This document shows, in pieces, positions 451 through 62,909 of a stretch of DNA of 64,000 nucleotides. Within the stretch, counting starts at the first letter, position 1. Each line of letters begins with the position of its first letter. The stretch is taken from contig CACGVC010000003.1 of NCBI GenBank assembly GCA_902576335.1, positions 21,001 through 85,000 of the forward strand, written 5' to 3'. The notes beneath the pieces are model-generated. The model searched no databases. It saw nothing but the letters and a program-made list of their open reading frames with translations, and was not told where the DNA came from. A program made the position numbers and the translations under genes. The stretch comes from an uncultured Pelagibacteraceae bacterium (GTDB lineage: Bacteria > Pseudomonadota > Alphaproteobacteria > Pelagibacterales > Pelagibacteraceae).

Positions 451-1794
451 TTAATTGCTTAATAATGATGACCATGATGGGTCAGAGGCATCTGTAGGGG
501 TTTTTACCATCCTCTCATTATAGCCTGTCAAATCAATAGACCATAATTTAGCAGAAAATCCCTCCCCTTTATCATCAGTTTTAGTTTCTCTATAAAATAT
601 TAAAACTCTACCATTCGGCGACCAAGATGGTGCCTCTTGATAAAAATTTTCAGTCAAAAGTCTCTCTCCACTACCATCTGTTCTCATAACGCCAATATAA
701 AATTTACCTTTATGAAGTTTGGTAAATGCTATCAAGTCACCTCTGGGTGACCAAACAGGCGTACCGTATAAACCTTTACCAAACGAAATTCTTTTAACAT
801 TGCTTCCATCACTTTTCATGACATAAATTTGTTGATAACCACTTCTGTCAGAATTAAAGCAAATAAACTTTCCATCTGGGGAGAAAGATGGAGAGGTGTC
901 AATTGAAGGGTGATTAGTAATTTTTTCTACAATACGGTTTTCTAAATCCATAGTATAAATTTCTGAATTACCATCTTTAGCGAAACTCATAATAATTTTT
1001 TTTCCATTTGGTGAAAAACGTGGAGCAAAAGTCATTCCAGGAAAATCACCAACAACTTCTTGCATTCCTGTCTCAATATCCAAAAGATATACCCGAGGTA
1101 AGTTTCTAAAGTAAGAAAGATAAGTCACCATTTGACTAGTTGGGTTAAACCTTGGTGTTAAAACAAGCTCATTACCCAATGTTAAAAATTTATTATTCGC
1201 TCCATCTTGATCCATTATCGCAAGCTTTTTAATACGTTTAGTTTTTGGACCTTCTTCTGCAACGTAAATTATTCTTGTATCAAAATAACCTTTTTCTCCA
1301 GTTAATCTTTGATATACTTTATCTGTTATTATGTGTCCTACTCTTCTCCAATTTGTTGGAACGGTTGTAAAAGCTAGCGCAACCATTTCCTTTCCAGCAA
1401 GTACATCCCAAAGTCTAAACTCAACTCGTAATTTTTCATCTAAGTAACTTACTTTTCCAGTAATTAATGCTTGAGCTTTAATTAAATTCCAATCTTCAAA
1501 TCTTGGCTTTAAGTTTGCGATATCGGGAGCTTGTAAAAACGCATCTTTATTTAATGGATTAAAAAGACCGGATGTTTTTAAATTTACCTCAATTATCTTT
1601 GAAATTTCTTCACCGATATTTCTTTTTTTTAAAATCTTCTCAAAATTTTGCCTTGAATTTTCATCAATTGATAAAGGTGAGACTGCAATAGGAAGAGGAT
1701 CCAGATTTCCTCTAGTAATGTCTACTTCAATAAGACTAAAACTTTTTGAGGGGATTATAATTAAAAAAATTATTATCTTTATTAGAATTTTCAT
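451..1794 (-). CDS. tolB: Tol-Pal system protein TolB
   Basis: Signal peptide plus repeated WD40-like PD40 blades ([15 protein letters not shown]); next to pal. Confidence 0.93.
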
Positions 1795-1803
1795 AAATTT
1801 ATA

Positions 1804-2613
1804 TTATCCCTCTAACATTTCTCTTGCATCAAAGTTTAATTGTAATTCTTTCCATCTTTCATAACCTGTAGTTGGAACCCTTAATGGTTGACATAATTTT
1901 ACCGCTCTAAGCGCACTTTCTGCTAATACTTTATAAAAACCCTGTCCAGGCTTATTCATTCTTGCATGATCTATTATTTCTGATTTAGCTACGGTGCCAT
2001 CTCGTTTTAATTTTAATTTAATTCTAACTAATAAATTTTCATTATAAGGTAATCCTAAAGGTATACTCCAACAACCAAAAATCTGTGCCTTAAGGGCATC
2101 CTCCTCGCTTAGAGATAAACCTGCGTTCTCAACATTTCTTTTTTGATCTTGAGTAACTTTGTCATTTTTCTTTGTGGTTTCAGCTGTTTCTTCTTTTGAT
2201 TTGTCAATTAATGCTGCAATATTGTTTGGATCAAAAAGTTCATCCTTTTCAAACTCTGAAACTTGTTTAACTTCATTATCTATAACTTCTGGGTTTTGCT
2301 TATCCTCTTTGACTTCTTTTTCATTTTTTACTAGATTATCGGGCATTGGAACAGAGTCAGGTTTTATTTTTTTTATTTTCTTAGGTGGTGCCTGCTCAGA
2401 TACTAACTTTTCCTCTTTTTTTTTTACCTCTTCTATAATTTTTTTTGCTTTTGGAGCAAAAGGAATATTTGTTTTGTCTGTAATTTGTATCAATTCTATT
2501 GATACAATTGGAGGAAGATCAATAGGTTTTTTTGATAAAAACGGCAAACTCATAGCGGTTAAAAATATAAATACTGCATGAAAAACTGACGATATAATTA
2601 CACTTTTGTTCAA
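1804..2613 (-). CDS. tolA: TolA/TonB-like cell envelope protein
   Basis: N-terminal TM, long K/E-rich middle, C-terminal TonB-like domain; between tolR and tolB. Confidence 0.75.
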   Translation of the reverse strand: MNKSVIISSVFHAVFIFLTAMSLPFLSKKPIDLPPIVSIELIQITDKTNIPFAPKAKKIIEEVKKKEEKLVSEQAPPKKIKKIKPDSVPMPDNLVKNEKEVKEDKQNPEVIDNEVKQVSEFEKDELFDPNNIAALIDKSKEETAETTKKNDKVTQDQKRNVENAGLSLSEEDALKAQIFGCWSIPLGLPYNENLLVRIKLKLKRDGTVAKSEIIDHARMNKPGQGFYKVLAESALRAVKLCQPLRVPTTGYERWKELQLNFDAREMLEG

Positions 2614-2617
2614 GTCT

Positions 2618-3034
2618 TTACCTTTCCTTATAAGGTTCTGAAATCAAAGCAACCTTTGTAAACCCCGATCCAGATAATAGACCCATTATTTCAAGTACTC
2701 TACCGTAATTAATCGTTTTGTCCCCTCTAACATAAATTCTTGTATCAGTTCTATTTTTTGAGACTGCTAAAACTTTTGCAATTATTTTTTCGTATTCAAC
2801 TTTTGACTCTTGTATAAAAATTTCACCTTTTGAATTAATTGATAAAGTCAGCGGTTCGGCTTCCTCTGGGAGTGAATCTGCAGAACTTTCAGGTAAATCA
2901 ACTTGTACTCCAACCGTAAGTAATGGAGCTGTAACCATAAAAATTATTAAAAGAACGAGCATTACATCTACGAACGGTGTAACATTTATTTCACTCATAG
3001 GTTCTTTAGATGATCTATTAAACTTAAAAGCCAT
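2618..3034 (-). CDS. tolR: TolR/ExbD biopolymer transport protein
   Basis: EINVTPFVDVMLVLLIIFMVTAPL motif. Confidence 0.93.
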   Translation of the reverse strand: MAFKFNRSSKEPMSEINVTPFVDVMLVLLIIFMVTAPLLTVGVQVDLPESSADSLPEEAEPLTLSINSKGEIFIQESKVEYEKIIAKVLAVSKNRTDTRIYVRGDKTINYGRVLEIMGLLSGSGFTKVALISEPYKER

Positions 3035-3037
3035 TAA

Positions 3038-3727
3038 TTAAATTATTGTTAAAAATCTTTTAGAAAAATTTTCTAGTCTCTGAGAATATTTAATTGAATC
3101 ATTATTAAATTTATTATAGGCGACAACTGCTGGTATAGCAGCCAATAAACCTAAAGCAGTCGCAAAAAGAGCTTCTGCTATTCCAGGTGCAACAATTGCC
3201 AAGCTTGTGTTCCGAGAAATTGCAATAGACTGAAATGAATTCATGATTCCCCAAACAGTTCCAAAAAGACCTATAAACGGAGCTGTCGATCCCACTGTGG
3301 CTAAAAAAGTGAAACCTTTACTAATCTTGGTAACTTGTTTTTCAATACCAGTCTCGAGCAGCGTTGTCATTCTGACGTTCAAATCTGTTTTTGATCTTCT
3401 TTTAAGTAAATTTTGCATTGCATCCCTAAAAAGTAAAGCCATTGGATCTTCAGTGGTTGCAGGGAGATTGTTATAAAAAGTTTCTGCAGACTTAGAGTTC
3501 CAAAACTTATTTTCAAATTCTTCGGTAGATTTATTAATTTTTTTGAAAAGCTTAAATTTTTCGAATATTACAGCCCATGAATAAATTGAGCAGGCGATAA
3601 GTATTAAAATAACAGACTTGACTACAATATCTGCTCTTATGAACAAATTCATTAATGAAAAATCAGCACTTGAAGCTAGTCCAACTGCTTGAGATGATAT
3701 ATCAGCTTCCATACCAGCTTCTTTCAC
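3038..3727 (-). CDS. tolQ: TolQ/ExbB proton channel
   Basis: GSTAPFIGLFGTVWGIMNSF and PGIAEALFATALGLLAAIPAVVAYN motifs. Confidence 0.93.
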   Translation of the reverse strand: MKEAGMEADISSQAVGLASSADFSLMNLFIRADIVVKSVILILIACSIYSWAVIFEKFKLFKKINKSTEEFENKFWNSKSAETFYNNLPATTEDPMALLFRDAMQNLLKRRSKTDLNVRMTTLLETGIEKQVTKISKGFTFLATVGSTAPFIGLFGTVWGIMNSFQSIAISRNTSLAIVAPGIAEALFATALGLLAAIPAVVAYNKFNNDSIKYSQRLENFSKRFLTII

Positions 3728-3763
3728 TTAAATGTGTCATGATTTTGACTTATTTATTAAGTT

Positions 3764-4258
3764 TTATTCCTCAATTTTATAAGTTTCATAATAAAAACTA
3801 GCGATTAATATAGCATCAGCCTTATTTGAATCTTTCTTTTTCGATAACTGTGATGAGAAATTCGGAAATATTTCAATAGCTCTTGTTCGACTAGCATCTT
3901 TTTCAGAATTGATTAAATTATAATATTTCTTCCATTTTGTTGGTCTAACAAAAAACATCGGTAACCTCATTGCAGAACAAATACCCTTTATAATTCCAAA
4001 AGACTGACCGAAATTAAACATACTTGTTACTCCTTGCCCCGGCATAGCTGTAACATGCTCTATCACAACTCTTGTTTTAGTCTCAGGATTGCTATTAATT
4101 TTTTTACTAATTTCATTACAAATCTGAGCTCCATTAACCTGTTTTTTGTTCTTTTTTCCTTCGTTCATTACGGGCATTTCAATTACATCTAAAATTTTTC
4201 CATCTTTAAAGAAGCAAATTGAACCAGAAATACCCGGATCTATACCAATTATTAACAT
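3764..4258 (-). CDS. RuvC-like Holliday junction resolvase, resembling the phage-type subfamily
   Basis: IGIDPGISG and VIEHVTAMPGQGVTSMFNFGQSFGIIKG; D/E/D-type RNase H fold motifs; located next to yebC. Confidence 0.75.
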   Translation of the reverse strand: MLIIGIDPGISGSICFFKDGKILDVIEMPVMNEGKKNKKQVNGAQICNEISKKINSNPETKTRVVIEHVTAMPGQGVTSMFNFGQSFGIIKGICSAMRLPMFFVRPTKWKKYYNLINSEKDASRTRAIEIFPNFSSQLSKKKDSNKADAILIASFYYETYKIEE

Positions 4259-4261
4259 AAT

Positions 4262-4984
4262 TTAATTTAGGAACTCTGCATTTGAATATACGTTTTGAAC
4301 ATCATCCTCATCCTCCAATGAGACAAAAAAATTTATTAAAGTTTCGTGATCTTTCTTTGGAATTTGTACATTGTTTAGTGGAACCCACTCTATTCCAGTT
4401 GATATAAAATTACTAATTTTTTTCTCTAAATCTTTTTTAATATTATATATATTGGCTACTGAACATTGAATTTCATGTAATTCTGCATTTGATTTACATT
4501 CTTCAGCACCTGACTCAATTGCTAAATCTAAAATTTTTTCTTCTGAAATTTCATTTTTGTCAATCTTTATAACACCTAACTGCTTAAAATTATGAGAAGC
4601 TGAGCCTTGTGTCCCAAGACTACCTCCAGATTTTTGGAAGATAGTTCTTATTTTCGATGCAGTCCTATTTTTGTTATCTGTTAGTGTCTCCACGATAACA
4701 GCAACTTTATTTGGTCCAAAACCCTCATATCTTAAATTTTCAAAATTTACACCATTGTTTGATGATGATTTATGTACAGCTCGCTCAATATTATCTTTAG
4801 GCATATTTGCAGATCTTGCAGCCTGTATAGCTGATCTTAATCTTGGATTCATATTTGGATCTTTATCTCCCAATTTTGCAGCAACAGTAATTTCTTTTGA
4901 TAACTTGGAGAATATTTTAGACCTTTCTTTATCTGCTTTTCCTTTTTTGTGTTTAATTCCTGCCCAATGTGAATGTCCCGCCAT
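4262..4984 (-). CDS. yebC: YebC/PmpR family regulatory protein
   Basis: MAGHSHWAGIKHKKGKADKERSKIFSKLSKEI N-terminus. Confidence 0.95.
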   Translation of the reverse strand: MAGHSHWAGIKHKKGKADKERSKIFSKLSKEITVAAKLGDKDPNMNPRLRSAIQAARSANMPKDNIERAVHKSSSNNGVNFENLRYEGFGPNKVAVIVETLTDNKNRTASKIRTIFQKSGGSLGTQGSASHNFKQLGVIKIDKNEISEEKILDLAIESGAEECKSNAELHEIQCSVANIYNIKKDLEKKISNFISTGIEWVPLNNVQIPKKDHETLINFFVSLEDEDDVQNVYSNAEFLN

Positions 4985-4987
4985 AAA

Positions 4988-5791
4988 TCAACTATTTTTT
5001 AATTGCTCTCCAAAAATATAACTTTCAACTTTATCTGCTAAACCAGTTTTTATATTACACTCAACGATTACTCCGCATAAAGTAGAATCTCCATTTGCTG
5101 GAAAATGTTTTACAGAATCTTTTTTCATAAATCTATTTAATGAATTATTTTTGTTCATCCCAATTACTGAGTCGTAATCACCACACATTCCTGCATCAGT
5201 TTGATATGCGGTACCGTTTTGTAAAATTCTTGCATCATTAGTTGGTATATGAGTATGTGTACCTACTACAAGCGACGCTTTACCATCAAAATAATGTCCA
5301 ATGGCATTTTTTTCACTCGTAATTTCTCCATGAAAATCAACGACTAAAAAATCAAAATCTTCTCTCAATTTAAACTTATTAATAAATTTATTTGCTGTTT
5401 CAAAAACATCATTACTTTTTTTCATAAAAACGTTTCCAATTAAATTTAAAACTCCAATTTTAAAATTATTTTCAGTTGTGAAAATTTCAAAACCCTTTCC
5501 AGGAGAAGGTTCAAAGAAATTTTCTGGTCTTAATATTCTTTTTTCATTCTCAATAAATTGCATTATATCTTTCTGATCCCAAATATGATTTCCACTTGTA
5601 ATCACATCAACTCCACTTGAAAAGAATTTTTGACAAATTTTTTGTGTTAGACCAACCCCGCTTTCGTCTGCATTTTCTCCATTTACAATTACAAAATCGA
5701 TCTTTCTTTGCTTTTTTTGAGAAGGAAGATCTTCAACTAATTTTGAACATCCTGAACTACCCACAACATCACCTAAAAATAATATTCTCAT
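4988..5791 (-). CDS. YmdB-like metallophosphoesterase (TIGR00282 type)
   Basis: MRILFLGDVVGSSG, VNGENADESGVGLT, VVDFHGE and VGTHTHIPT metal-binding motifs. Confidence 0.9.
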   Translation of the reverse strand: MRILFLGDVVGSSGCSKLVEDLPSQKKQRKIDFVIVNGENADESGVGLTQKICQKFFSSGVDVITSGNHIWDQKDIMQFIENEKRILRPENFFEPSPGKGFEIFTTENNFKIGVLNLIGNVFMKKSNDVFETANKFINKFKLREDFDFLVVDFHGEITSEKNAIGHYFDGKASLVVGTHTHIPTNDARILQNGTAYQTDAGMCGDYDSVIGMNKNNSLNRFMKKDSVKHFPANGDSTLCGVIVECNIKTGLADKVESYIFGEQLKNS

Positions 5792-21106: not shown

Positions 21107-21226
21107 ATGCCTGGCAATGTCCTACTCTTCCATGTCTTAAGACAAAGTACCATTGGCGCTGAAAGGCTTGACTTCCGAGTTCGGAATGGGATCGGGTATA
21201 ACACTCTCGCAATAATCACCAGGCAC
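21107..21226 (-). rRNA. rrf: 5S ribosomal RNA
   Basis: Minus strand TGCCTGGTGATTATTGCGAGAGTGTTATACCCGATCCCATTCCGAACTCGGAAGTCAAGCC...GGAAGAGTAGGACATTGCCAGGCA; ends pair. Confidence 0.95.
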
Positions 21227-49721: not shown

Positions 49722-50540
49722 ATGCCCAATCTAGAAATATTTAATAAGAAAATTTATTTGTTTGACTTATGGGGAGTTATTCATGATGGCAGAAAACCTT
49801 ATGATAAAATAATCAGGTTAATTAAACATTTAAAAAAATTAAAAAAAAGAATTTATATTGTATCTAATTCTTCATCTTCAAGTTCGGAAGTAAAAAAAGA
49901 TTTAAAAAAAATGTTCATTAACATTAATTATTTTAATAAAATTTTTACTAGTGGAGATTTCGCATCAAATTATTTAAAAAGATATAAAAAAAAAAAATTT
50001 TATTCTCTTTCAGGTTTGGGACCTAAGAATTTAAAATTTTGTAAAGAAAATAAAATTATACTCACATCCGATCCAAAAAAATCAGATATTGGAATTCTAA
50101 TATCAAATGAAATTAATATTAGAGAAAGTGAGCTTATAGGTAATATTAACAACTTCTTTTTATTAAAGAAAAAAATTATTTGTATAAACCCTGATTATTT
50201 GAACATAAATAAAAAAAAATGTATGGGCTTTTATGCAAATAAATTTTTTTTAAAAGGAGGAAATGTAACGTGTCTTGGAAAACCTGAAAAATTATATTTT
50301 AATTTTATTTCAAAAAAAATTAAAAATTTTAAGAAGAGAGACGCTATTCTTATAGGTGATACTTACTTAAACGACATCTGTGGTGCAAATAAATTTGGGA
50401 TAGACTCAGTTTTATTTAAAAGTAGTAAAATAAATCAATATATTAAATTAAATAACGTAAAATTATTTGGAAAAATAAAAAAAAATTTAGAACCCTCAGC
50501 TAAAATTGATCCAAAAGAATTAGAAAAAATTTTTTTCTAA
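49722..50540 (+). CDS. HAD-superfamily class IIA (NagD-like) hydrolase
   Basis: YLFDLWGVIHDGRKPY, IVSNSSSSS, LGKPEKLYF, ILIGDTYLNDICGANKFGI. Confidence 0.87.
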   Translation: MPNLEIFNKKIYLFDLWGVIHDGRKPYDKIIRLIKHLKKLKKRIYIVSNSSSSSSEVKKDLKKMFININYFNKIFTSGDFASNYLKRYKKKKFYSLSGLGPKNLKFCKENKIILTSDPKKSDIGILISNEINIRESELIGNINNFFLLKKKIICINPDYLNINKKKCMGFYANKFFLKGGNVTCLGKPEKLYFNFISKKIKNFKKRDAILIGDTYLNDICGANKFGIDSVLFKSSKINQYIKLNNVKLFGKIKKNLEPSAKIDPKELEKIFF

Positions 50541-50543
50541 TTC
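50517..50543. terminator. Candidate bidirectional terminator between convergent genes, inside both coding ends
   Basis: Perfect 13-bp inverted repeat GAATTAGAAAAAA-T-TTTTTTCTAATTC spanning both stop codons. Confidence 0.5.
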
Positions 50544-52070
50544 ATTAATGATAAACAAGCCCTTGTAGAAGGATGTTAAAATAGAGTCATAATCCTCTTT
50601 AACGTAACCAGTTAAAGATAACCAAATCAGTCCATGAATTAAATCAATTTTGTTAATTTCTTTACCAAATTTTTCTTTAAAAAAATATTGATATTTTGCC
50701 CACCCATTTTCTAAAATATAATATTCTATATTCTTATTTATAATTCTTAGTGCAAACTTTTTATTATTGAAATTGTCATATGACCCGTAAACAGAGTAAT
50801 ATAATTTTGCCCAATCATACAATGGATCACCGAATAATTTTGAATTTCCAAAATTCATTCTCGGATCAATCAATTTAACATTATTTTTTTTATCAATAAG
50901 AATATTAGAAAAAGTTGTGTCACCATGAATTATTTTGAATTTGTTTGGATTAATTATTTTTAATAATTTTTTTAAATCCCCAATATATTTTTTTGAAAAA
51001 TAATTTTTACAATTTTGACCATTTATTCTAAATTCTTCATCTTTGAAATTAGGTATCATATTTTTTATACTTAAGACCCTATCAATCGTTTTTTTGTAAT
51101 AAACTTTATTTAAATCTTGTCTAGTAGCTTCTTTCTCAGAAATAGAATGTAAATCATCAATCGTTAGGAAAATTTTTTTTAGAATTTTTTCTCTGTTAGA
51201 AAAAATTTGATAAGGATGTTTACCGTGTATTCTTTCCAGTTTAATTGAATTTTTAGATTTATATATTTTTGGAATTTTATTAAAATTGTATTTATTTAAA
51301 TTTTTATACCATGCTTTTTCACCTTTTAGAAGTTCGTCAAAATCTTTGATCTTACTTTTCTTTATTACATATTTTTTAAATTTTGAAATTTCGTTAAAAT
51401 ATCTTGAGTTACTAAATTTACTCCTAAAAATTTCAAGATTTCCATCTTCACCGATTTCAGATACATTATCAAATTTTTGAGTATTAAATTTAATTTTTTT
51501 ATTTATCAAATATTCTACAAATTCTCCATCACTAGAAATATTTTTTAATAACTCTTTATTGGGAAAATAAAAAAAACCTATAACTCCATTTTTATTTTGA
51601 AGGTTAATATTTTTTTTAATTTTTTTATTTTGTATTAAATATCGACAAGGGAAATTATCGGAAATACCAACTAAAGGTTTATTTGATTTTTGTAATTTTA
51701 ATTTTGATGTAAAAAATAGATCACTCCATATAATTAATATTGGCCCATCATTTTTTATCAAATGCAAAGTTTGATTTATTCCAGATAAGGAGCCAGATCC
51801 TTTCGCTTTAATTAAATGTAAATTATTTTTTGGTTTAATCGTTTCTGTATATAATTTCAATGCATCGAATTTGTAATCACCAATCAAATAAAAGGAATTT
51901 GCGTCTACGGCATCTAAAGTATGATATAATAATGTTTTACCCAATACTGGTACCAAACATTTGGGTCTATTCCATGTGTTATGCTTTAGTCTAGTGCCTT
52001 TTCCACCTGCTTGAATAATTACATTTAGTTTAATATTTTTTTTTTTCATTTTGCCAATAAAAATTTTCAA
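50520..52070 (-). CDS. Fusion: sugar-phosphate/NTP nucleotidyltransferase + APH/choline-kinase-like phosphotransferase
   Basis: N-term VIIQAGGKGTRLKHNTWNRPKCLVPVLGKTLLYHTL; C-term IIHGDTTFSNILIDKKNNVKLIDPR. Start may be internal ATG at 52049. Confidence 0.85.
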   Translation of the reverse strand: MKIFIGKMKKKNIKLNVIIQAGGKGTRLKHNTWNRPKCLVPVLGKTLLYHTLDAVDANSFYLIGDYKFDALKLYTETIKPKNNLHLIKAKGSGSLSGINQTLHLIKNDGPILIIWSDLFFTSKLKLQKSNKPLVGISDNFPCRYLIQNKKIKKNINLQNKNGVIGFFYFPNKELLKNISSDGEFVEYLINKKIKFNTQKFDNVSEIGEDGNLEIFRSKFSNSRYFNEISKFKKYVIKKSKIKDFDELLKGEKAWYKNLNKYNFNKIPKIYKSKNSIKLERIHGKHPYQIFSNREKILKKIFLTIDDLHSISEKEATRQDLNKVYYKKTIDRVLSIKNMIPNFKDEEFRINGQNCKNYFSKKYIGDLKKLLKIINPNKFKIIHGDTTFSNILIDKKNNVKLIDPRMNFGNSKLFGDPLYDWAKLYYSVYGSYDNFNNKKFALRIINKNIEYYILENGWAKYQYFFKEKFGKEINKIDLIHGLIWLSLTGYVKEDYDSILTSFYKGLFIINELEKNFF

Positions 52071-52647
52071 CTTTTGTTATTAAGAAGTTTCTAAGTGTGT
52101 TATACTTTGAAAATAGTTTTAAATAATCTCTTATTTCATTTACAGAGCAATTGTTTATATTTCTATTATACAAAATCTCTTGAGATTCCCATAGTATAAA
52201 ATTAGAAATTAATAATTCAAAATAAGCTTCCTCGAAATTTGATGCATTTGAAATAATTTTATGCCTTGTTATTTTATTAAAATCAATTTTGTCTATACTT
52301 TGTGCATTTTTTAACGCTTTAATAATGCTATTAACTTCAAATAAAGTGATATCTGCTTTTTTTCTATCTTTTAATTTTTTTTTCAAATGATTTAATTTTA
52401 AACATAATACTGTCAATCTATCTAATAACAAACCTACTGTATTCATTCCAACAATTATATTTTTATTTTTTCTTATTATCTTTTTTTTTGGAAATTTTTT
52501 TGTAAATTTTATTTTTTGATTGAACAGTTTAGTTGAAAATTTATTTTTAATAAAATTAAGATGCATAATTTTATTTGTAGAATTAGAATTAATAAATTTC
52601 AGCGTAAGATTAAAAATCTTGTCAAAATATAGTGAATTTATAGTCAT
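52030..52647 (-). CDS. Hypothetical helical protein
   Basis: Open frame overlapping the NTP-transferase start; NTVGLLLDRLTVLCLKLNHLKKKL helical segment; no family assigned. Confidence 0.55.
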   Translation of the reverse strand: MTINSLYFDKIFNLTLKFINSNSTNKIMHLNFIKNKFSTKLFNQKIKFTKKFPKKKIIRKNKNIIVGMNTVGLLLDRLTVLCLKLNHLKKKLKDRKKADITLFEVNSIIKALKNAQSIDKIDFNKITRHKIISNASNFEEAYFELLISNFILWESQEILYNRNINNCSVNEIRDYLKLFSKYNTLRNFLITKVENFYWQNEKKKY

Positions 52648-54405: not shown

Positions 54406-55542
54406 TTAGCTATTATTTATCTTGAGTTTAACAAATTTAATAAGGTTCTCTGATGAATTATTTTCAATTTTTAAATTTGAGTATTTTTTATAATCATTAA
54501 TTTCTTTGTCATCAAGATATCTTTTTTCTGATACAAAATAAATTTTTTTATAAAGAACCTTTTCATTAAAAAAGAAATCTTTTGGTGGAAAAATATCTAA
54601 CCCAATTTTTAAGTCAGAATATGCAGCTAAAAGTCTTGCTCCACCTTGATTTCCTATGAAAATTCCAGAATTTAGAAATGAAAAAATTTCATATTCTTGT
54701 CTATCTTTTGCTTTTTTATCATAATTAAAAAACAAATCTTTATTTATAATCTCTTTTTCAAAATTTTTTTTAATATTATAATCCCCATTAAGAAATATTA
54801 GAAAGTTATTGTTAGTTAAATAATTTATTAAAGGAATATAACTTTCAAAGTTCTCTGCATTTCTTAGAACACTACTTTCATCTCCATCTTTTTTTCTCAA
54901 ATATAAATTAACTATTTTCTTTCTGTCTCTATTTGAAATTAAATCTGTAAATTTTTTAGAAAAAGAATAATTCAAATCAAAAAAATTTTTACTTCTATTT
55001 TTAATTATATAATAAAAAATATTACTTATGTTCTCTGTGTATAAAATTTCATTATAATTTTTAAAATCCTTTTTAGGCAATATGCTGCTAGCTGCTCTCC
55101 AATATAATTCAAATTTTGTAATTACATTATTATGCTTTATTAAAAGACCAATTAAATATTGAATAAAAAATTTTATAAAATTATCTCTGTTTTCAATAAA
55201 CCCAAATTCAATTTTTTTTCCAAAAATCATATAATTTTTTGAAACATTTAAATTGATAAAATTTGTATTAGTAACTTTATTAAAAAAAAAATTATGCCTT
55301 TTATCTTGTAATAAATTTATTATTAATCTTTTACTATTTGGATAAAGATATTCAAATATAACTGGTATTATAATTTGATGGCCAAAACCTCCTTCAAAAA
55401 AAATTACAATTTTTTCTGTTCTAATAATTTTTTTTAAATTTAAAAATAATTTAATAATTATAATTAACAAAGTTATAATCTTAAAAAAAAAGTTTATTAA
55501 ATTAAAAATTAGTTTACTCATAATTGATAGAATTAGGATCAT
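54406..55542 (-). CDS. Putative GT-B-type glycosyltransferase / hypothetical
   Basis: N-terminal TM; VIFFEGGFGHQI; GIFIGNQGGARLLAAYSDLKIGLD. Confidence 0.5.
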   Translation of the reverse strand: MILILSIMSKLIFNLINFFFKIITLLIIIIKLFLNLKKIIRTEKIVIFFEGGFGHQIIIPVIFEYLYPNSKRLIINLLQDKRHNFFFNKVTNTNFINLNVSKNYMIFGKKIEFGFIENRDNFIKFFIQYLIGLLIKHNNVITKFELYWRAASSILPKKDFKNYNEILYTENISNIFYYIIKNRSKNFFDLNYSFSKKFTDLISNRDRKKIVNLYLRKKDGDESSVLRNAENFESYIPLINYLTNNNFLIFLNGDYNIKKNFEKEIINKDLFFNYDKKAKDRQEYEIFSFLNSGIFIGNQGGARLLAAYSDLKIGLDIFPPKDFFFNEKVLYKKIYFVSEKRYLDDKEINDYKKYSNLKIENNSSENLIKFVKLKINNS

Positions 55543-57937
55543 CTTTTGAATCTGTAATGATTATATCTATTTTTTCATACGAATTTAAAAATATATTTTC
55601 ATTTAAATTAGTAATATTATTATTCCAAGTTGCAAATTTAAATTTTGTATGACCCAACATTTCTTCAACATATTTTTTTTGATCATAATTAAAACTTAAA
55701 TAGTCAATTACATTTGAATATTTTGTTAAGGAAAGATTGGGTATATAATTTTGACAATAATCATTATTATTATCTTTACAACTTGAAAGATCTTTTAACA
55801 TAAGCATTATATTATTTCCGTTTTCTTTAATTCTTTTAGCACAATTATATAATTTTATATTTTTAAAATTTGTTCCTCTTGGAAATTCTATATAAAAATT
55901 TATTTTTTTTTTGAATTTATCCAACGCATCATGTAGTGCTTCACAATTTTTTACATTATCTATATTTTTTCCATCTAACCAAACTGATTTAATATTTTTT
56001 TCGTTAGACGGTAAAATATCGAAAACCTTGTCTAGTGATAAATTGTTAATTTCATCTTCTAAGTGTGCAACATTAAATTTATTATTTTTAAATATAATAT
56101 CTATTTCAATACAATTAGAGGAATGAATGCCTCTCAGTATTTTACCGACTGTATTGGATCGATGATAACAAAACTTTTTTTCTTTAAATTTATTAGTTAA
56201 ATAAATATTATGAATTGCGTTAGAACTGAAATTTTTTGAATTTTTATATTTTTTATTTTTTAATGAAATATGCTTTCTACCATTAAATGTATTACGTTTT
56301 AATATTGGTGGTAATTTATCTACAGAAGTATTTCCTATAATTTCTGAATTTATTGTAGAGTTTTTAATTTCAATATCGTGTAGATGTAAAATTGTTGGAG
56401 ATAAATTTTTTAAAGTACTAATTTTTTTTTTGTTATAAATTTCTTTAATCTGATTATATTTATTAGGATATTCATTTATAAATGCATCATTAAAATAAAT
56501 GAAAAAAGGTACAGTTAGCATCTCATAAACAAACCTTGAAGATTCATGACCTCTATTTGTATAAACTGACTCCCCATGATCAGCAAAATATATGAAATAG
56601 TATGGTTGATTTAGCTTAGATATGATACTTATTATTTTGGAAATAGATTTATCAATATATTTTATTGTAGTATCATAACTCTCTATCAAGTCTATATTTT
56701 TTGCTAAGTTATCTCCTTTAAAATATGTATTACCAAAAATATCTACAATCTCTAAATTAGAATAATAATCATCAATTTTTGATCTTTCATTTTCAGGTAT
56801 ATGTTCTAAATATGGTCCATGTCCTGCATAAGAATGTAAAAGAATTAAAGTATTTTTTAATTCATCAAGTTCAGCTTTTTTAAGATTATTCTCAAAAAAC
56901 TCTAAATCTTTGACTTTTTTTTTGTTATTATTGAATTTTAGATTTTTAATTTTGTCAAAAATAATAGAATACTCAAAGTTTCCAAAGCTATTTGAGTACA
57001 TTTGAATATTTTTTTTTGCTGTTAACAATATTTCTATCAAGGATAATGATTTTGTCTCATATATCGTCTTTAGATTGTTTTCTTCTAATGATTTTTCGTC
57101 AACTAACTCTAATGAAAAAGCTTCTAATAAACTAGGGCCTGTATGTGTGTGAGTTGACAGAACATCAAATTTGAATAAATTTAATTTTTTTTCAAGAAGC
57201 TTCAAGTTTGGAGTTGTTTCTCGAAAATATCCATATGATGAAAAGTTTAATGATGATGTAGACTCGCCAATATAAATTATTCCATTTATATTATTATCAA
57301 AATTTGCGTCTAAATTTATATCATTATCAAAATTAAGTTTTACTTGCTCATGTAATTTTTTTGGAGATATCAAAAATGAGTTAAACTTTAAAAAAATCAT
57401 AAATAAAAAAATAAAAATTAATGAATATAGAAAATAAATTAATTTAAGTTTAAAGTTTGAATTTCTGACAAATAGTAAATTCAAAACAAACAACATTGAT
57501 GAAACTAGAAAAGATAAAATAAAAATATTTAGATATGTCGAGCTATAAAATAAAAAATCTGATAAAGTTGATAAATAAAAAAAAATTTCTTGAAAAGTGG
57601 TTACTTTGGTAGCATCAAAAGTGTCAATGCCAAAACTTCCGATCCATTCAAATAATTGTCTTCCATAAAAAGTTAAAAAAAACCAAAAAAAAATTATCAC
57701 TAAACCCTGAAATATTTTTTTTTTTTCTATTAACAAGAAGCTTAAAAGGCCAAGTGTTGTACTTAATAGAATTAAATGAATATAATTTGTGAAATAATAA
57801 AATAATTTCAAATAAATTTGAAAAAAAGAAAATGATTTAAGTATATTAAATGATGCTATTAAAGAAATTAAAATTAAAAATAAAAATATATTAAAATTCC
57901 TATTTTTTAATAATTTTTTCATGATTAAATTATTCAA
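55514..57937 (-). CDS. Membrane phosphoethanolamine-transferase-like sulfatase-fold protein fused to a GDPD-like TIM-barrel domain
   Basis: N-term TMs; IGESTSSLNFSSYGYFRETTPNL, HSYAGHGPYLEHIP, YFADHGESVYTNRGHE; C-term CYHRSNTVGKILRGIHSSNCIEIDIIFKNNKFNVAHLEDE. Confidence 0.75.
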   Translation of the reverse strand: MNNLIMKKLLKNRNFNIFLFLILISLIASFNILKSFSFFQIYLKLFYYFTNYIHLILLSTTLGLLSFLLIEKKKIFQGLVIIFFWFFLTFYGRQLFEWIGSFGIDTFDATKVTTFQEIFFYLSTLSDFLFYSSTYLNIFILSFLVSSMLFVLNLLFVRNSNFKLKLIYFLYSLIFIFLFMIFLKFNSFLISPKKLHEQVKLNFDNDINLDANFDNNINGIIYIGESTSSLNFSSYGYFRETTPNLKLLEKKLNLFKFDVLSTHTHTGPSLLEAFSLELVDEKSLEENNLKTIYETKSLSLIEILLTAKKNIQMYSNSFGNFEYSIIFDKIKNLKFNNNKKKVKDLEFFENNLKKAELDELKNTLILLHSYAGHGPYLEHIPENERSKIDDYYSNLEIVDIFGNTYFKGDNLAKNIDLIESYDTTIKYIDKSISKIISIISKLNQPYYFIYFADHGESVYTNRGHESSRFVYEMLTVPFFIYFNDAFINEYPNKYNQIKEIYNKKKISTLKNLSPTILHLHDIEIKNSTINSEIIGNTSVDKLPPILKRNTFNGRKHISLKNKKYKNSKNFSSNAIHNIYLTNKFKEKKFCYHRSNTVGKILRGIHSSNCIEIDIIFKNNKFNVAHLEDEINNLSLDKVFDILPSNEKNIKSVWLDGKNIDNVKNCEALHDALDKFKKKINFYIEFPRGTNFKNIKLYNCAKRIKENGNNIMLMLKDLSSCKDNNNDYCQNYIPNLSLTKYSNVIDYLSFNYDQKKYVEEMLGHTKFKFATWNNNITNLNENIFLNSYEKIDIIITDSKDDPNSINYE

Positions 57938-58769
57938 AAATATTTTTTTTAGAAATAAAAAGTGTTCCCTCTAAATGACTTTTCGGGATATGTTTTATAT
58001 TTGTACATCTTTTCCAATTATTTTTTTGAGAATACAGCTTAAATTGAGTATTTTTAAATTTATTCCAAATAATTTTTCTTGATATATTATCAGTAACTTC
58101 TACTAAAAAATCTGTTTTTTTTGCAATTTTTAAATTCAAATAATGAAAAATTTGTTTTTCTGAACCCTCACAGTCAAGTTTTACTAAATCATATTTGCTA
58201 ATTATTTCATTGATACCAATAGTTTTAATTTTGTATTCAAATATTTTTCCATATACTTTTAATTTCTTATTTTTAATATGACTACCAGTAGTATTTCCCA
58301 AAACTCTTGTGAAAGTCTCAATGCCACTAAAGTTAGAAACTCCTTTTTTTATTGTGTTTTTTATGCTTAATTTATTTTTCTTAAGGTTTTTAATAAGAAG
58401 TTTAAAATGTTTTTCATCTGGTTCATAAGAATCTACCTTATAACCAAGCTTTGATAAAACAATTGTATGAAGACCTATATTAGCTCCTACATCTGCCACT
58501 CTTGAATATATTTTCTTATATTTATTATAAAAAATAAAAATTATTAGTTCATCTATTCCAATCAAATTAAATATATCGGTATTTCCAAATTTTACGTAAG
58601 GAAAATAAATTGTTTTTCCAAATATAGAAAATCTTTTACTCAGCTTTTTTTTAAGCAAACTTAAATAAAAATTTTCAAATTTTAAAAATAAATCAGTGCC
58701 ATTAATTTGTATCTCGGGATTATCTTTTAATATTTTTAAAATGAAATCAAAATTTTGAATGTTTCTCAT
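57930..58769 (-). CDS. FkbM family methyltransferase
   Basis: VADVGANIGLHTIVLSKLGYKVDSYEPDEKHFKLL, DLVKLDCEGSEKQI. Confidence 0.92.
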   Translation of the reverse strand: MRNIQNFDFILKILKDNPEIQINGTDLFLKFENFYLSLLKKKLSKRFSIFGKTIYFPYVKFGNTDIFNLIGIDELIIFIFYNKYKKIYSRVADVGANIGLHTIVLSKLGYKVDSYEPDEKHFKLLIKNLKKNKLSIKNTIKKGVSNFSGIETFTRVLGNTTGSHIKNKKLKVYGKIFEYKIKTIGINEIISKYDLVKLDCEGSEKQIFHYLNLKIAKKTDFLVEVTDNISRKIIWNKFKNTQFKLYSQKNNWKRCTNIKHIPKSHLEGTLFISKKNIFE

Positions 58770-60615: not shown

Positions 60616-61407
60616 TTATAGGTTACCTAAATTTTTTAATTCGTTCATAGCAATTGAAAATTCATCCTTTGATGGAGATCTATAATGCCATATAGGATTA
60701 TTTTGCATAAAACTAATTGGGTACCCTTTAATTGTTTTGGCAACTAAACAAAAAGGCTTCTTTTTATCTCTGTTTAAAATGGATTTGACTATTTCTTTTG
60801 TATTATGTCCATCACATATTTTTGAATCCCATCCAAAATTTATAAATTTCCTATCTATCGGATAAATTGATGGAGTTAAAATTGAAGACCGCTCTAAACT
60901 CTGAAGATCATTATTATCAATAATCGCTATAATATTTTTTAAATTTAAGTTTCTAATTGCCATGATCGCTTCCCAAGTGGAACCTTCTTGTAACTCGCCG
61001 TCGCTTAAAACTACATAAACGTTTTTTTTTCTATTGCTTAGAGCGAAACCTGCCGCCATAGACAATCCTTGACCTAAAGAACCTGTTGATGCATTCAAAC
61101 CTTCATTCTTTACTTCAGGGTGAACGCCTAACTTTCCATTTGATTTAGAGTATTTTCTTAAATCGTTTTCACTTAAAACTTTCAAATCTTTTAGAATAAC
61201 ATACTGGAGTGCTGAGCAATGACCTTTTGATAATATAAAGTTTTCTCTCTCATTTTTTTTCATTAATATATTATAAATAGCATCCAAAATCTCAGTTGAC
61301 GAAAAGGTTCCACCTAAATGGATTGCACTAACTCTTTGTGACATTTCTAATAGTTTGACCCTATAATTAATGCATCTTCTTTTTGCTATCGAAATTAATT
61401 TATTCAT
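60616..61407 (-). CDS. Transketolase-like, N-terminal (TPP-binding) subunit
   Basis: FILSKGHCSALQYVIL, STGSLGQGLSMAAGFAL, VVLSDGELQEGSTWEAIMAIRNLNLKNIIAIIDNN. Confidence 0.92.
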   Translation of the reverse strand: MNKLISIAKRRCINYRVKLLEMSQRVSAIHLGGTFSSTEILDAIYNILMKKNERENFILSKGHCSALQYVILKDLKVLSENDLRKYSKSNGKLGVHPEVKNEGLNASTGSLGQGLSMAAGFALSNRKKNVYVVLSDGELQEGSTWEAIMAIRNLNLKNIIAIIDNNDLQSLERSSILTPSIYPIDRKFINFGWDSKICDGHNTKEIVKSILNRDKKKPFCLVAKTIKGYPISFMQNNPIWHYRSPSKDEFSIAMNELKNLGNL

Positions 61408-62909
61408 TAAATATTTAAAATAGACTCTACAGCTTTTAATAGTTCTTTTTTATCTGGAACTTTAGAATTTCCAAAATTTTTTGAATGTAATCCGGCATAT
61501 ATATTTCCTAAAAATGGGACTATTTCATCATCAAATCCTAAATTTACCAAAAAAGAGGTCATAATAAAATAGGCATCTCCACATCCTGTTGTATCAGTTG
61601 GATTTTGATAAAAATTAGGACAGTAAAAAAGTTTATTTTTTTTATTTACAAAAAGACTTCCTCTGTGGCCTAACGTAACTGACATTGGAGATAATCTTTT
61701 TTTAATAATTAAATTTTTAATTTCATTGAAAGAGGTAATTTTTTTTTTAAAATTCAACTGAAATTCCTTTAGATTTATTGATAAGTAAGAAAACTTTTTA
61801 TATTTATCAAAAAGGTTAAATCCATAATTATTAGAATTTGATTGAACATTTAAGTATAGATTATTTCCTTTAAAATATTTTTTAGAAATATTTTCATCTA
61901 TCAACCCGAGTCCAAAATCAAGTAAAAAAACTGGATAATTTCTCTTATAAGATTGAATTTTATTTATAAATTTTTTGTACTGTTTGACTGCAGGTTTAAA
62001 TTCGTTTAAATCATTAACTTGAAAGATCTTGTTATTTCTTACTTTTGTAACAAATCTTGTTTTAATAGGAATTTCAAAATTAATATCTGATGAAACAATA
62101 TTTATTTTTTTACTTATTTTAGATAGTATTTTTCGATTAATATTTTTTTTTTTTGTGGGTAACAAATATAAAATATTTTTTGAGAAATTAGACATCATGT
62201 TTCCAGCAGCGATAGTGCCTCCAGCATGAATATCCTCTTTTATAAAGTTACTTGTAATTATCGGAGACTTGGTAGCTGTACCAATTACGTCTATATATTT
62301 GTAAATATCTAAAATTGGCTCACCAGTTAGTATAATTTTTTTATTATTAATTGAATTAATTGTCTTGGTTATTATTTCATTTGAATATTTTTTATTTATT
62401 TTTTTTAATAATTCTAGTGTATTTTTATCTAATTTACTAAAATGATTATTTAAAATTTTAGTTGAACTATATTTAATACCTTTTGTAAAAAATATTTTAG
62501 TTTTATTTTTTTTACATGCATTTTTTTCTTTAACTAAGTTTTTATCATTTTTTTTATTAATATAATCAGCGCCTTTAATGTAAAAATCTGGTTTAAAAAG
62601 ATTTAATGCTTCTTCCCCAGTTTCAGAGTTTGAAATATATACATAATCAACATATTTGATACTTGATAAAAATTTAGCTCTTTCATTAGATTTAAAAAAT
62701 GGTTGTGACGGCCCTTTATTAATAAAATCATCTGAAGTAATACTTACTAGCAAAATATCACAAATTTTTTTTGCTTCTCTAAAGTGATTTGTATGTCCAA
62801 GGTGTAAAATATCAAATACTCCATGACATAATCCTACAATCTTTTTTTTAAATTTTAATTTAAAATAATTATAGTTTTCTTTTCTAATAATATTTTCTGT
62901 TAAATTCAT
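61407..62909 (-). CDS. Bifunctional HldE-like enzyme with swapped domain order: N-terminal cytidylyltransferase, C-terminal PfkB/ribokinase-like
   Basis: N-term GLCHGVFDILHLGHTNHFREAKK and YIKGADY; C-term AGGTIAAGNMMSNF, NPTDTTGCGDAYFIMTSFLVNLG. Confidence 0.88.
   Translation of the reverse strand: MNLTENIIRKENYNYFKLKFKKKIVGLCHGVFDILHLGHTNHFREAKKICDILLVSITSDDFINKGPSQPFFKSNERAKFLSSIKYVDYVYISNSETGEEALNLFKPDFYIKGADYINKKNDKNLVKEKNACKKNKTKIFFTKGIKYSSTKILNNHFSKLDKNTLELLKKINKKYSNEIITKTINSINNKKIILTGEPILDIYKYIDVIGTATKSPIITSNFIKEDIHAGGTIAAGNMMSNFSKNILYLLPTKKKNINRKILSKISKKINIVSSDINFEIPIKTRFVTKVRNNKIFQVNDLNEFKPAVKQYKKFINKIQSYKRNYPVFLLDFGLGLIDENISKKYFKGNNLYLNVQSNSNNYGFNLFDKYKKFSYLSINLKEFQLNFKKKITSFNEIKNLIIKKRLSPMSVTLGHRGSLFVNKKNKLFYCPNFYQNPTDTTGCGDAYFIMTSFLVNLGFDDEIVPFLGNIYAGLHSKNFGNSKVPDKKELLKAVESILNI

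Follow-up and report, generated by a model that had tools for sequence, protein, structure and literature searches.

Phosphoethanolamine (PEtN) transferases such as EptA, EptC/CptA, MCR-1 and OpgE combine five membrane segments with a sulfatase-fold periplasmic domain that carries a catalytic Thr and metal ligands; the catalytic domains of EptA and MCR hold conserved disulfides. Head-group transferases alter surface charge and thereby shape encounters with phages, predators and antimicrobial peptides. No second catalytic domain on a head-group transferase of this kind is reported in the literature searched, and none of the words "fusion", "fused" and "phosphodiesterase" appears in the main text of a survey that covered 69,814 MCR-like proteins (PMC10285318). 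Here we analyze a gene in a 64,000-nt stretch of DNA from an uncultured Pelagibacteraceae bacterium (contig CACGVC010000003.1, positions 21,001 to 85,000; hereafter the window). Its product resembles these enzymes in the features listed above but has ~225 extra residues that make up a second enzyme-like domain, predicted to be a glycerophosphodiester phosphodiesterase (GDPD)-like barrel. An earlier note on this DNA knew of no characterized protein of this architecture; likewise, a literature search, which covered few subscription papers, found no description of such a transferase-phosphodiesterase fusion. The architecture thus appears to be new and undescribed, is built from known kinds of enzyme and, though rare, is conserved in distant relatives.

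The gene, which joins a PEtN-transferase-like domain to the GDPD-like tail, occupies positions 55514-57937 of the minus strand, as do all of its features described below, and encodes 807 residues when read from a TTG. An in-frame ATG at 57922, five codons past the TTG, is the more likely start and yields an 802-residue protein; predicted catalytic, ligand, cysteine and membrane positions are given in this ATG numbering. The plus strand of the same interval is riddled with stops. The earlier note had placed a single 807-residue open reading frame exactly here, and all of the motifs it quoted (GES...NFSSYGYFRETTPNL, HSYAGHGPYLEHIP, FADHGES, HRSNT, IEIDIIF and VAHLEDE) are found in the translation. 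In a full-length structure model (predicted local distance difference test score, pLDDT, 65.5; predicted template modeling score, pTM, 0.59) the two halves are separated by a linker of residues 526-566 (56225-56347) with pLDDT below 50.

The N-terminal half is well supported as an EptA/EptC-type transferase, in keeping with the multi-membrane-spanning, sulfatase-fold, EptA/OpgE-like domain that the earlier note had recognized. Five hydrophobic segments (residues 9-34, 46-66, 69-87, 128-154 and 156-187; 57362-57898) are seen in the hydropathy profile and as long helices in the full-length model. They are followed by a sulfatase/alkaline-phosphatase-fold domain (Pfam PF00884, E 2.3e-25, residues 219-521; 56375-57283). 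A phmmer search of the PDB returned three matches, of the EptC and EptA types (EptC 5zzu, E 2.7e-11), and all six NCBIfam matches of this half are PEtN transferases. For the full-length model, Foldseek placed EptC 6a82 first (E 9.1e-15); EptC, EptA, MCR-1 and ICR lead the ranking, at E 9e-15 to 4e-11, and LtaS and GacH, both phosphoglycerol transferases, follow at E ~1e-7. EptA-, EptC/CptA-, MCR-1- and OpgE-type enzymes give the best sequence and fold matches. In an alignment of ten fused proteins, eight from alphaproteobacteria (the window protein included) and two from another class (L026 and L029), E220, H368, D448, H449 and H459, which correspond to the metal ligands of PEtN transferases (Glu, Asp and His plus two further His), are invariant. 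The predicted nucleophile, Thr261 of the STHTHT motif (57140-57142), is Thr in nine of the ten and Ser in L008; we match it to the second Thr in the motif of EptA and MCR.

The C-terminal tail (~225 residues; 55523-56191) is invisible to family models: residues 567-807 match no Pfam model, even at E 10, NCBIfam models do not recognize them, and sequence searches of the PDB returned nothing, or chance-level matches only. Its fold was judged from prediction. An AlphaFold model of the tail alone, built from six sequences, shows alternating strands and helices (mean pLDDT 76.7, pTM 0.79), although only two of the five models were good and three were poor. GDPDs are the best Foldseek matches in the PDB (7e0v, E 8.9e-7; 1zcc, E 3.7e-4), with weaker matches to other TIM barrels among and after them, and in a viral library the first 13 matches are mostly named GDPD or GP-PDE. 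The predicted active residues lie in or beside the barrel strands, chiefly at their C-terminal ends, as judged from strand positions only. The first strand is followed immediately by His587 and the third by His620; the second contains E606 and D608, and the fifth E679; D650 and K652 close the fourth strand, and W766 closes a late one.

These residues are strongly conserved. His587, the H of HR.N and a predicted catalytic residue (56162-56164), the predicted metal ligands Glu606 and Asp608 of E.D (56099-56107) and Trp766 (55625-55627) are invariant in all ten fused proteins. The predicted second catalytic residue, His620 (56063-56065), and the predicted metal ligand Asp650 and phosphate-binding Lys652 of the W.D.KN motif (55967-55975) do not vary among the eight alphaproteobacterial fusions. 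The tail motifs as a whole are invariant among these eight, which are only ~30% identical, except for the Arg of HR in L020. The order HR...EID...AH, from which the earlier note had proposed the tail's identity, thus coincides with conserved E, D and H residues. The six cysteines that the protein contains likewise all fall in the tail (585, 604, 660, 694, 715 and 723); five align in the eight alphaproteobacterial fusions and are absent from L026 and L029, and the sixth falls in a matching place by eye. Because the cysteines are confined to the tail, they suggest three disulfides and a periplasmic location, consistent with the topology of the transferase.

Comparison with known families delimits this assignment. 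The tail shares with the GDPD family (PF03009) a predicted TIM barrel, the H...E.D...H order and the nearest solved folds, and in an hhalign alignment of the tail profile with 24 alphaproteobacterial GDPDs the H-R, N, E.D and H positions are in register. Yet it has HR.N, E.D and H but not the G and EN of the HRG..EN signature, has D.K where GDPDs have E.K, and spaces the second His ~30 residues from the Asp, as opposed to the 60 residues that separate His and Glu in L030, a typical GDPD, which indicates that the GDPD insertion is missing. Neither the window tail nor any of the 11 alignment members matches PF03009 at E 10. In GDPD-like phospholipase D the site comprises His12, Glu32, Asp34, His47, Asp91, Lys93 and Trp230 (PMC3815110, PMC5299669); H587, E606, D608, H620, D650, K652 and W766 occur in the same order, with early spacings of 19, 2 and 12 residues versus 20, 2 and 13. 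Unlike the phospholipases D/sphingomyelinases D, however, the tail is anchored in the membrane through the transferase, its C-termini lack the ATXXDNPW motif and it has no PDB sequence match. The menorin/FAM151 family belongs to the phospholipase C (PLC)-like phosphodiesterase superfamily (PMC6965129), but is described as an animal family. Menorin (PF10223) does not match the window protein; the only relative with a match is the standalone protein L021, below the cut-off (E 0.021, 14.7 bits versus 25), and that match spans the H..E.D..H..D.K stretch. A Menorin search of 150 genomes gave no match, but the controls were equally silent, so this negative carries no weight. On predicted structure and motif order, we therefore regard the tail as a probable GDPD by superfamily, not by family: the GDPD-like character proposed in the earlier note holds for the barrel and for the conserved E, D and H, joined by D.K and W, but does not extend to a canonical GDPD with HRG..EN and the insertion. 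The tail represents a GDPD-like subfamily that has not been catalogued and is overlooked in genome annotation.

The fusion, which the earlier note had suggested seeking in other genomes, is rare but recurrent. It occurs in seven Pelagibacterales (SAR11) genomes, the window's included (G000, G019, G232, G330, G407, G451 and G626), or ~1% of the SAR11 genomes searched (at most ~650, the queries varying in sensitivity). Another alphaproteobacterial family contributes one more genome with the fusion (L020). The relatives of the window gene (L007, L008, L009, L010, L013, L017 and L020) have the same fusion, and all eight are single open frames of ~783-868 codons. Recurrence in one frame in independent genomes rules out a frameshift or assembly artifact joining two genes. 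A search with a four-row alignment found four SAR11 loci. The pairs L002/L009, L005/L007, L006/L010 and L008/L015 are duplicate views of the same contigs. Two matches were discarded: L003 in G073, a thioredoxin-like frame, and the weak L018 in G423, beside a transketolase pair. Viral and genome contigs scanned with single sequences, viral contigs scanned with the four-row alignment, plasmids searched with the tail relative P0003 and phage records searched with the full protein yielded no relative. Trees of the tail and of the transferase agree on the clades L009+L013 and L007+L008+L010+L017, and because both halves give the same clades, the alphaproteobacterial fusions are consistent with one old, inherited fusion. 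The window protein and L020 are unresolved in both trees, and the longest branch belongs to the window tail.

The tail domain also occurs in a different class of the same phylum, where six of the 78 genomes searched, all from a single genus, encode it. In three (L021, L022 and L028) it is a separate protein with a single anchor that adjoins an OpgB-like sulfatase gene, overlapping it by 4 bp in L022; the remaining three genomes, L026 and L029 among them, encode it as part of a CptA-like transferase. Comparison of the alphaproteobacterial tails with these domains gave an hhalign probability of 97.6% (E 4.6e-12, 188 columns; reversed control, 0.64), and the two groups are homologous. The CptA-type fusion may have arisen independently, given its different transferase subfamily. 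The standalone domain beside an OpgB-like transferase supports a functional link. The tail repeatedly accompanies transferases of phospho-head groups, by fusion in two lineages and as a neighboring gene in a third arrangement, and this pairing gives a concrete lead to its substrate that can be tested. L026 and L029 are a natural example of a domain that is retained although catalysis has probably been lost.

The genomic setting places the gene among those for surface polysaccharides. A 5S rRNA lies at 21109-21223 of the window and a 16S site past its right end (C3:90475). Surface-polysaccharide genes fill the stretch between them, with the fusion gene in their midst; Pfam named ten neighbors, and the remainder were identified by reading translations. 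They encode NDP-sugar epimerases, glycosyltransferases, NeuB-/NeuA-like proteins, flippase-/polymerase-like membrane proteins and methyltransferases. This island is the O-chain biosynthesis cluster of SAR11, which in Pelagibacterales is located between the 16S-23S operon and the 5S gene (PMC11898729). The nearest relatives of the genome place it among uncultured Pelagibacteraceae.

We favor a model, with a probability of about 50%, in which the protein is a two-domain inner-membrane enzyme that faces the periplasm, transfers PEtN and carries a metal-dependent phosphodiesterase acting on a related phosphodiester. The folds (by prediction), the conserved residues, the fusion and its setting were computed; from them we infer the periplasmic side, the activity, the head group, the acceptor and the order of steps. 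The N-terminal half would load phosphoethanolamine from phosphatidylethanolamine onto Thr261 and pass it to a hydroxyl of the envelope glycan made by the surrounding O-chain cluster. The tail would be a GDPD/PLC-like phosphodiesterase in which His587 and His620 act as acid and base and Glu606, Asp608 and Asp650 bind the metal, and would cut a phosphodiester produced or consumed by the transferase domain; it might, for instance, trim the group once installed or turn over the lipid or glycan by-product. That one protein adds and trims, as the earlier note had suggested, is plausible. A more specific version, in which the same periplasmic protein installs PEtN or a similar group on a surface glycan and then edits it, cleaving the phosphodiester so that a phosphate, bare or cyclic, stays behind, is offered only tentatively.

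Several observations weigh against this model. The best NCBIfam score of the transferase half is 64.7 bits against a cut-off of 561, and each of the six matches is far under its cut-off. Since the PEtN-transferase models score so low, the head group is not fixed, and since no named-subfamily cut-off is reached, this half cannot be filed as EptA or CptA. It also differs from these enzymes in lacking any cysteine, so that disulfides of the EptA/MCR type cannot form. The hhalign match between tail and GDPDs is weak (P 0.01; score 24.2 versus at most 13.4 in 20 shuffles), and with the correlation option it scores 30.75 versus a maximum of 29.09 in 100 shuffles; because the gap to the shuffled controls shrinks, sequence alone leaves the GDPD assignment unsettled. 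Finally, L026 and L029 have His620 replaced by Gly, Asp650 by Glu and Lys652 by Asn, indicating that the tail fold can persist without a full site.

The last observation bears on the chief rival, in which the tail is a former phosphodiesterase that has become a non-cutting module binding or positioning the glycan acceptor or the phospholipid donor. A version that does not cut probably exists, since L026 and L029 have lost His620, Asp650 and Lys652 while keeping H587, N590, E606, D608, W648, E679 and W766, and the second domain of FAM151A is reported to have lost its site (PMC6965129). Against this stands the retention of all predicted catalytic residues in the eight alphaproteobacterial fusions despite their low identity. 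Such strict conservation is otherwise hard to explain and favors selection for catalysis by the tail; a binding module is thus disfavored, and we consider it doubtful for the window protein.

The two other alternatives concern substrates. The tail could act on unrelated ones, such as environmental glycerophosphodiesters or periplasmic lysophospholipids, in phosphorus scavenging, with the fusion merely localizing it. SAR11 frequently inhabits phosphorus-poor water, GDPDs elsewhere scavenge phosphorus, no canonical GDPD was found in this incomplete genome, and in another class the domain occurs as a membrane-anchored protein of its own. But its partner is always head-group-transferase-like, whether fused (alphaproteobacteria, L026 and L029) or adjacent (L021, L022 and L028), the gene lies in a glycan cluster and not in a phosphate-uptake cluster, and the fusion was found in only ~1% of the SAR11 genomes searched, which makes scavenging improbable. 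Alternatively, the transferase half could move phosphoglycerol or another head group, with the tail releasing glycerol phosphate from the product. The standalone tail relatives do adjoin OpgB-like phosphoglycerol transferases, and GDPD enzymes by name act on glycerophosphodiesters; yet every named family and PDB sequence match of the transferase half is a PEtN transferase, and the fold matches to phosphoglycerol transferases are several orders of magnitude weaker in E value, so that we regard this reading as very unlikely. SAR11 bacteria rank among the most abundant in the sea and their surface is little known; PEtN transfer coupled to a phosphodiesterase provides a hypothesis about its chemistry. 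If true, a decoration that is both written and edited would be encoded in a hypervariable O-chain island on which phages and grazers may select.

The fusion gene probably belongs to an operon, as it overlaps both neighbors and all three are on the minus strand. The upstream gene (57930-58769) encodes an FkbM-type methyltransferase and overlaps the fusion gene by 8 bp when the latter is read from the TTG; the downstream gene (54406-55542) overlaps it by 29 bp and encodes a 378-residue protein with no Pfam match. Other neighbors are found in the relatives. A gene for a VTC-domain protein (polyphosphate-polymerase-like) lies directly upstream of the fusion in L010 and L065. It is preceded by a CotH kinase gene in L010 (788-4188 with the VTC gene); in L065 it is preceded by a gene without a Pfam match and, before that, a DUF4956 gene (1634-5148 with the VTC gene). 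The VTC genes in two distant SAR11 genomes suggest a phosphate-handling envelope module. A diacylglycerol kinase gene is near the fusion in L064, and a likely homolog in L007. PEtN transfer from phosphatidylethanolamine frees diacylglycerol, so a nearby kinase would fit such transfer, but it and its neighbors may just be core genes of that locus.

Three further proteins of the island, all on the minus strand of the window, were noted. One (50520-52070) combines a nucleotidyltransferase domain (PF00483) with an APH-type kinase domain (PF01636) and could supply an activated head group or sugar. The next (52030-52647) has 205 residues and a sub-threshold match to DUF4254 (22.3 of 27 bits). The third (61407-62909) is HldE-like; its cytidylyltransferase domain precedes its PfkB kinase domain, the opposite of the domain order in E. 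coli HldE.

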